A stretch of 64,000 nt of DNA from Polytrichum commune (lineage: Eukaryota > Streptophyta > Polytrichopsida > Polytrichales > Polytrichaceae): the NCBI GenBank assembly GCA_950295325.1, contig OX485807.1:41260440-41324439 (forward strand), given 5' to 3'. Shown here piece by piece: positions 28,804-31,890 of the stretch. Both the position numbers and the translations under genes were made by a program. The notes beneath the pieces were generated by a model, which ran no database searches, had not been told where the DNA came from, and saw only the letters and a program-made list of their open reading frames with translations. Numbering within the stretch: the stretch's first letter is position 1; every line of letters begins with the position of its first letter.

Positions 28804-31800
28804 ATGGCTAGAGAGACGATGGTGACGGACTTTCTGGGGGTTGGAAGGAGCGAGCAGGTTGGCTCCGAGGACAGTGAGCGCGGGGGCACTTTAGTGAGGC
28901 CCATCCCCAGCGTGCCGGAAACTGTGGGAACGGGCCCTCTGTCGAGGGGCTCGCCTGCTCCCGAGGGCGCTCGAGCTGCGGACAGAGACAGCTCTATCAA
29001 TCGACTCCGCCAAGGTAGCTTCTCTTTCCGTTGCTGTGTCTGTCTTTCTCTTTGCAAATCCAGATGTCTGTCTTTTTAGAACGGCATTGAAGTGAGGCTC
29101 GTCCTTGTCGGGAAACCTAGCACACTGCCAATCGCATATCTCTGGACTCCCGGTTGATTTCGACGGAAGATCCGACAGGCGGTGTCATTAGTCCTAGATG
29201 CACGCTCTTCGTATCCTCAACAAGTCCCTGCTCCTTGCACTAGGCGCAGTGCGAGAGAAATGGCTAAGGAGTTGATCAAAGCGCAAAAATCAATCGGGTT
29301 CTTGAAACCTAGGTCTCCAACATGACTAACTCGCGGGCTTGATGAGGTCTTCCACGTAAGAAACAATCAATTTGAACGTAAGGACTAGAGACTAGAGCGT
29401 GGCATTCTTAGTGGAGCTGCCAAATGATATTTTCTCCTTATACAAACAGTCTCTGCTTTCTCCAGGCGTTCCTTCTCCTGAAAAAATAGGGAGGAAGAGG
29501 CCGTCTACAGGAGGGAAAGACGACCAAGACTTGGAGAGTGGGTTAACTGGAGTACATTCGTCGGAGCTCTCGGAGGCTGAGATAATGAAACTGAGTCGAG
29601 GGGATTACTGGCGCTACTTTAAAGAGAGAGGTACTTAATTGGCATCCGTGGAACTACACGCAATTAACCTTGAGTCGAAGCGGTATGTAAATGTACTAAA
29701 TAAATTTCTCTAATTGAATACGTGAGCGAACAAAGAGTAGATTATTGACTTACGTCGTAAGTGACTAGTGTATCGTTTCCATCAACCCTGATGGCGAGGT
29801 TTAGAGATGCCAGATTTGTGGCTAAATATGCGAGTGGTTGTGAACAGGCATGCGCCGGCCTTCGTGGAACAAGCAGATGATGATGGGAATGAAGCAGCAG
29901 ATCGACAGTCGCACCGACGACAAATTGAGCAAGCCAGTTGTCGCTCCAAAATTGGAGATGACAGATGGTCCTATGCTTGGGCATCCTCCATCACTGTCGG
30001 CATGGGAACAGTCTGCCCCTGCAAATCCATCCCACCCTCCCGTAAGTCACTGGGCCTTGCAGGGTGTTGTCTTGGCACATTGCGAGTACTACTCTGTAGT
30101 GCTCTGGAGTTGGGGAGGTGGTGCTGTTGATTGTGTGAATGACAATCCACACACAGGGCTTTGCTCAGAAATCCACTGCACATGATCATTCATTACAAAC
30201 TACTGAACCGCTTGTTTTGCCTGCTGCAGACTACCTCTGGCATGCAGTTGCAGGAAATTGCGGCTCACCAGGAGCGTGGGAGGATGAGAGCGGCAGCAGT
30301 GATGTATGCAAATAGTCTACAGGGACGAGGCGTGCAAAACACAGGTGCACAACCCTCGTCTATGGGTGAAGAAGCTCTGCAAAGTGCGCAACCATCAGAG
30401 CGTGCAGGTCCAGACTACCTCTCTGCGGCCCGACCTTCTACGCAGCAGCACCCTGGATTTGGGAACTCACTACCTCTCTTCAACAAAGGGAAGGGGCTTC
30501 CGGGTCTGGAAAATGGGATGGGTTTGGCTGGCCAAAGAGCAGCTCAAATCCAACAAGCGGTTCTTCAAGGGGGAAAGATGGCAACTCATGCTGCTACAAG
30601 GTACATTTGAGCAAATTGTGGCAATATTTGTTTGTGGTTCTATGTTCTCTAAGCACAACTCCTTCAAAGAACGGCGTTTGCAGTGTATTGACATCTAGTG
30701 TACTGTACAGACCAGCTGGAGCAAGCAAGCACCCTCGGACAGCACAGCTTACAATCTTCTATGCTGGCATGGTGAATGTCTACGATGACGTTCCCTATGA
30801 CAAGGTGGGCTGCTGTTGTGTTTTCATTACCTCTTAGCTCGACCTATGTGTCGTTATGTCTTAGATGGTCAATTGGTAGTTTTACAACTGGTTGATAAGG
30901 TTGGCATTGCAATTGCAGGCTCAGGCTATCATGCTGTTAGCTGGTAGCGGAAACCCATGGTCGTCCAGCTACATGAATCCACCAGGAAATGTTGGCTCTG
31001 GACGTCCTTTCTCCACCCCTATGGCAGTGCCACAGTCCACAACATCAAGACCAGGGTCTCCTGCTCCTCAAGCTACGACCTCTGCTGCTGCTGCCCCAGC
31101 TGCAGTCAATCTGATCTTGGCCAACCAAAGGTTGGCAAAAACCCAGCCAGTAACACATGTTGGTGAGTACCTGGGTCTGCTGGAGCCTTTGCAGTTCCTT
31201 GATAACTCTTTCATTGGTAGTCTGTTGTTGGTGACAGTGCTGGTATTCAAAATTGCACTCAAGTGTATCTTAAGTGTGGATATTGACATGGGCTTTCTTT
31301 ATGTGATGCAGCAGAGCTACCCCAGGCACGGAAGGCATCCTTGGCTCGATTTTTGGAGAAGAGGAAAGACAGGTAGTGAATTCACTCCACTCACTACATA
31401 CAGTCAGCGTCCTGATAGTGCCTGCTTATGCATGCTCACAACTTGTGCCAGCACAGTCTGGATGGAAAGGGTGGTGGCTGAATAGTTTGATTGGTGTGTA
31501 TACAGGGTTCGAAAGGCACCTTATCCTATGAGGAATGAGGGATCTGTGTCTCCACCACATGAGAGGTCTTCAAGTCCTTTGAACAGCAAGCCACCAACTC
31601 GATCTTGCTCTCCAGCATCGACATCAGGGGCTCGGAATCTGCTATCTTCGTCTGGCCCAGGCAATCAGGCATGTGCTTCGAGCGGTAGTGAACCAAATTC
31701 TCCAAGCAATAGACATCCACAGACTCCACCAGGACAAGGCATGTCGGAAGAGAACAGCAATGGGACCCCTGGAGGAAGGGAATATGAAAGAGAACGGGAA

Positions 31801-31890
31801 AGTTCAGGAATGGGTTGTGGGAGGTCACCAGGCATGAGAGGCATTGCGGCCGAAAGTAAAGTTGAAGCAATGGACGAGGAGATGTCATGA
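28804..31890 (+). CDS. PPD: TIFY-family repressor with PPD, TIFY and JAZ-type Jas domains (574 aa, 8 exons)
   Basis: Exons: 28804-29014, 29466-29630, 29848-30041, 30230-30600, 30711-30804, 30919-31162, 31312-31372 and 31506-31890. All junctions are GT-AG and keep phase. The N-terminus has a DFLGVG motif like that of JAZ proteins. Residues about 104-145 form a PEAPOD (PPD) domain with GMRRPSWNK at 126-134. The TIFY (ZIM) domain spans about 323-357 (TIFYAG at 328-333, then AQAIMLLAG). The Jas motif is at 428-455: [19 protein letters not shown], then VRKAPYPM. Known roles: TIFY recruits NINJA/TOPLESS, PPD binds KIX adaptors, and a full Jas degron binds MYC factors and COI1. Angiosperm PEAPOD proteins have a divergent Jas without PY, so this combination is unusual. 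The protein is longer than most JAZ proteins. An in-frame ATG at 28756 would add 16 residues. It probably acts as a nuclear transcriptional repressor. Confidence 0.9.
31373..31505 (+). promoter_or_regulatory. Jas intron with immediate in-frame stop
   Basis: This 133-bp intron splits the Jas motif after KD(R), the position of the conserved Jas intron known from JAZ genes. If it is retained, the reading continues AGG TAG TGA. The protein would then end exactly after arginine 447 and lose VRKAPYPM and the whole C-terminus. In JAZ proteins such truncated forms resist COI1-dependent turnover. That outcome is inferred for this gene. Confidence 0.7.

Follow-up and report, generated by a model that had tools for sequence, protein, structure and literature searches.

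A PEAPOD domain and a complete JAZ-type degron in one predicted protein of the moss Polytrichum commune

JAZ and PEAPOD (PPD) proteins are treated as separate subfamilies of TIFY proteins, targeted by the ligases COI1 (JAZ) and SAP (PPD). A Polytrichum commune gene that appears to belong to both raises the question of what such a protein does and how it arose. The gene lies in a stretch of 64,000 nucleotides (the window; contig OX485807.1, here C5). An earlier note on this DNA placed the gene at 29466-31890; the locus was right, while the start and exon 1 (28804-29014) had been left out. The coding sequence runs from 28804 to 31890 on the plus strand and comprises 574 codons in eight exons, joined across seven GT-AG introns into one open frame. 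The DFLG motif that the note had described near the N-terminus is present, encoded by exon 1 upstream of the proposed start at 29466. The parts of the gene are as follows.

28804-29014, plus strand: exon 1, with the start ATG, MARETMVTDFLGVG and the DFLG motif; the frame is open to exon 2 through a GT-AG intron.
29466-29630, plus strand: exon 2, first half of the PPD (LSEAEIMKLSRGDYWRYFKERG), supported by the PPD alignment (z 16.5) and the splice sites.
29848-30041, plus strand: exon 3, second half of the PPD (MRRPSWNKQMMMGMKQQ...); GMRRPSWNK is as in Arabidopsis PPD1, the remainder diverged.
30230-30600, plus strand: exon 4, a low-complexity linker with an open frame, 80% identical in DNA to the C5 paralogue.
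30711-30804, plus strand: exon 5, the TIFY domain (TIFYAGMVNVYDDVPYDK); PF06200 62.2 bits, dN/dS of TIFY 0.02.
30919-31162, plus strand: exon 6, the end of TIFY (AQAIMLLAG), then linker.
31312-31372, plus strand: exon 7, the degron part of Jas, matched by PF09425 and by JAZ degrons in the PDB; 61 of 61 bases are the same in the paralogue.
31373-31505, plus strand: the Jas intron, positioned as described in PMC7450174; if retained, it gives a TAG stop directly after KDR.
31506-31890, plus strand: exon 8, VRKAPY (the PY part of Jas), a Ser/Pro-rich tail and the stop; 92.5% identical in DNA to the paralogue.

A perfect 110-base tandem duplication was seen upstream of the gene (27387-27610). Elsewhere in the window were a 323-base tandem repeat in two copies (61066-61706) and, on the minus strand at 55058-59074, open frames resembling those of a receptor-like kinase gene.

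As the note had stated, the PPD is encoded by exons 2-3, TIFY by exon 5 and Jas by exons 7-8, all in a single frame. When the Arabidopsis PPD1 domain (taken from PMC8836299) was aligned locally to the 574-aa protein, the score was 93; 500 shuffles averaged 26.7 (sd 4.0) and reached at most 47, giving a z of 16.5. There were 18 identities in 41 aligned columns; the core GMRRPSWNK was identical at 9 of 9 positions, and the stretch that follows it, the second half of the domain, was not conserved. A sequence search of the PDB found no PPD structure. TIFY scored 62.2 bits against PF06200 (cut-off 27). Jas scored 42.4 bits against PF09425 (cut-off 22.1), covering positions 1-25 of the 26 in the profile, with PY included, and matched the JAZ9 (4rs9) and JAZ1 degron (3ogl) peptides in the PDB. 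The degron reads ELPQARK, and an intron splits Jas between KRKDR and VRKAPY.

With JAZ proteins (AtJAZ9/TIFY7, AtJAZ1/TIFY10A, CpJAZ, PpJAZ and MpJAZ) the predicted protein shares TIFY, a complete Jas with degron and PY, and a Jas intron dividing the 20-residue part of the motif from X5PY. However, classical JAZs have no PPD or other additional domain, and the predicted protein carries one; its length is also roughly double the 100-300 aa typical of JAZs (PMC6829463). With PEAPODs (AtPPD1/2 and the Selaginella, Picea and Amborella PPDs) it shares an N-terminal PPD followed by TIFY and Jas, and the GMRRPSWNK core. Their Jas is truncated or modified, and lacks PY in angiosperms, whereas here a full degron with PY is present and the second half of the PPD has diverged. 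The note had called the Jas of flowering-plant PPDs divergent; PMC8836299 and PMC4823829 bear this out, describing that of angiosperm PPDs as truncated or modified.

Since the gene model is known here from genomic sequence alone, two adjacent genes might have been read as one, or the locus might be a pseudogene. This is very improbable, given 574 stop-free codons across seven introns and a second copy with the same layout that differs from the first with an overall dN/dS of 0.30. That copy lies about 130 kb away in inverted orientation (C5:41156589-41159666, minus strand), with the same eight exons and an unbroken frame. The earlier observation of a PPD and a full Jas in one predicted protein is thus confirmed at the level of the gene model, and is strengthened by the second copy and by our finding no other JAZ.

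Comparison of the two C5 copies gave a dN of 0.069 and a dS of 0.228. The TIFY region had a dN/dS of 0.02, and Jas was the most conserved part, with 26 of 26 residues identical and one synonymous difference. Exon 7 shows no base differences, though its flanking introns are only 77-83% identical; a constraint beyond the protein sequence is possible. Exon 1 was 96% identical, and 95 of the first 100 residues were the same. Throughout exons 1-3 and introns 1-2 (28804-30041 as compared with C5:41158420-41159666) identity was 92-97%, falling to 55-77% in introns 4-6. Because the 5' half, introns included, is so much more alike than introns 4-6, the pattern suggests gene conversion of that half between the copies. 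The PPD differed at 5 of 49 residues (5 non-synonymous and 0 synonymous differences), and Ka/Ks was rejected as a test of selection on it since the 5' half was likely converted; selection on the PPD is therefore not judgeable from this pair. Reading into a retained Jas intron would meet a stop (TAG) immediately following KDR in the gene of the window; the other copy would gain one further residue before its stop (TAC TGA).

Other JAZ and PPD genes were sought in the genome assembly (408 Mb; of its 64 contigs, seven measure 42 to 78 Mb and the others were small where examined). Searches were made exon by exon, so a missing match is no proof that a gene is absent. Nine TIFY loci were found: the two C5 genes, two ZML genes on C7, four genes on C1 and one diverged gene on C7. 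In the genome-wide PF09425 search a real Jas motif occurred only in the two C5 genes. The C7 matches at 15.6 and 19.5 Mb were rejected as Jas; they are cross-matches to the CCT domains of the ZML genes, which encode TIFY, CCT and GATA. When the Jas sequence was used as a protein query (E<=10), the C5 genes alone were returned, and in a genome search for PPD only these two were significant, one other match having an E of 1.5. The C5 pair are thus the only JAZ-type genes found. The four TIFY genes clustered at C1:60822500-60912500 were rejected as further JAZ or PPD genes: they have no Jas, and the one tested showed no similarity to PPD (z 0.7). They resemble TIFY8 in layout, having TIFY without Jas, and three of the four have DFLGLGH N-termini. 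Searches of viral and prokaryote collections found no related loci, as expected of a plant gene.

The diverged C7 gene (C7:34456500-34463500, minus strand; splicing inferred by eye) is a third paralogue with the same PPD-TIFY-Jas order. It retains a PPD remnant, LGESDILNLSREELWRLILKHGSQWPSWKS (z 10.8), with a degraded core (GSQWPSWKS), followed by TIFY; its Jas, LPFCRKTSLARFLDSRSKR, is degraded and has no PY. In this it resembles the state of angiosperm PPDs.

The note had proposed that the gene was either ancestral or hybrid. A hybrid would have arisen by secondary fusion, a moss JAZ gene having gained PPD exons from a PPD gene, and the apparent exchange of exons 1-3 and introns 1-2 between the C5 copies indicates that sequence transfer does occur in this half of the gene. 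We nevertheless regard a fusion as quite improbable. In the text of PMC8836299 all PPDs examined, lycophyte through angiosperm, have the order PPD-TIFY-Jas, which makes a fusion unnecessary. The third paralogue, too, shows this order, with remnants of the PPD, and the genome searches found neither a separate donor gene nor a stand-alone JAZ gene that could have been the source of a fusion. The ancestral half of the proposal is the simplest and fits better.

A stronger competitor, although still unlikely, is that we are dealing with a moss PEAPOD orthologue of the usual kind, which would repress growth under the control of a SAP-like ligase and whose Jas would bind transcription factors without being a target of COI1. 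The intact PPD core is consistent with this, as are published Sphagnum and Marchantia PPDs with a Jas-type domain (text of PMC8836299). However, the degron, PY and Jas intron are all JAZ-like, and Jas is the part best conserved between the C5 copies. Moreover, three COI1 genes were found (on C1, C2 and C4), with no other JAZ found for them to act upon. The KIX-type partners suggested by the note were also unsupported: the KIX_2 matches in the genome look MED15-type, and the PPD has diverged after GMRRPSWNK. A search with an approximate AtKIX8 N-terminus gave no KIX8/9 match, a weak negative obtained without a positive control.

We therefore return to the reading in which the protein is itself a JAZ. 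The two C5 proteins appear, from their sequences, to be the JAZ repressors of this plant, and we think it likely that the window gene and its C5 copy encode PPD-TIFY-Jas repressors which serve as the JAZs of P. commune and descend from a common PPD/JAZ ancestor. Parts of a dn-OPDA/COI1 pathway are present in the genome, namely the COI1 genes, a gene for a NINJA-type TDBD protein (C2:7868429) and MYC2-type genes on C4 and C7, with the C5 pair as the only JAZ candidates found. All three COI1 proteins keep the pocket residues R348, Y386, R409, Y444, R496 and W519 when aligned to AtCOI1 (3ogk), and at the ligand-specifying position, A384 of AtCOI1, have Ile (C1), Val (C2) and Val (C4); these residues were counted by hand on alignments of assembled exon pieces rather than of complete gene models. 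In mosses the A384-equivalent is mostly Ile, CpCOI1b having Val, and recognition of dn-OPDA by MpCOI1 requires its Val377 (PMC8201998). Control by COI1 through a dn-OPDA-type ligand is plausible for the C5 proteins.

In the mechanism that we propose, TIFY would recruit NINJA and the TOPLESS corepressor when hormone is absent, and Jas would bind MYC. A dn-OPDA-type ligand, rather than JA-Ile, would bridge COI1 to the ELPQARK degron and lead to destruction of the repressor. Retention of the Jas intron would give a protein that lacks PY and escapes COI1; such intron-retaining forms are dominant repressors in other plants. The splicing pattern of the Jas intron is reportedly conserved in bryophytes (PMC7450174). 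The PPD would be an ancestral contact surface that has been kept, flowering-plant JAZs having lost the PPD and flowering-plant PPDs the degron and PY.

Some of these features are already known: PPD proteins have been published from Sphagnum and Marchantia, as has the presence of an LPQARK degron in the JAZs of mosses. LPQARK was present in all moss and liverwort JAZs studied in PMC6829463, where PPD-bearing sequences were left out, and the window protein shares it; by itself it is ordinary among mosses. Arabidopsis PPDs have a modified Jas (PMC4823829, PMC3885651). According to the text of PMC8836299, the PPD-TIFY-Jas order occurs in a lycophyte, seed plants, Sphagnum and Marchantia; vascular-plant orthologues have TIFY and a truncated Jas, and the Sphagnum and Marchantia candidates are more widely spaced. 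These candidates (Sphagnum fallax, S. magellanicum and Marchantia OAE22702.1) are like the window protein in combining PPD, TIFY and Jas-type domains, and in having the PPD farther from the N-terminus and long spacers, so far as that text describes them. They are probably the same kind of protein. The text presents them only as PPDs with a 15-residue Jas, and does not discuss PY, the degron or their relation to the JAZs of these species. Marchantia has a single JAZ (PMC13364333, PMC9658390), and its PPD candidate may be MpJAZ itself.

Physcomitrella has 8-9 JAZs. No PPD candidate is reported in Physcomitrella or Anthoceros in the text of PMC8836299; therefore, so far as that text goes, a PPD-bearing JAZ is not universal in mosses. 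We found no statement in the body text of the literature of a bryophyte JAZ carrying a PPD or of the absence of a separate JAZ. Judged against that text, the combination of a PPD and a full JAZ degron in one protein, with no separate JAZ gene found, is apparently new.

A broader reading, which we hold tentatively and consider slightly nearer to doubt than to belief, is that the ancestral jasmonate repressor of land plants was a PPD-TIFY-Jas protein, that JAZ and PEAPOD are its descendants, formed through reciprocal loss, and that the undivided form is the sole COI1 co-receptor in this moss lineage. If a moss JAZ proves to be a PPD protein as well, then to explain how the two subfamilies originated is to ask what parts have been lost. 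Destruction of a PPD-type growth repressor by jasmonate would then become testable in one plant. In the hair-cap moss Polytrichastrum formosum, wounding leads to the accumulation of amino-acid conjugates of dn-iso-OPDA (PMC11663715), a response that makes a suitable experimental system for a moss of the Polytrichaceae. Were the undivided ancestral form to prove real, repression of growth and of defence would run through one protein.
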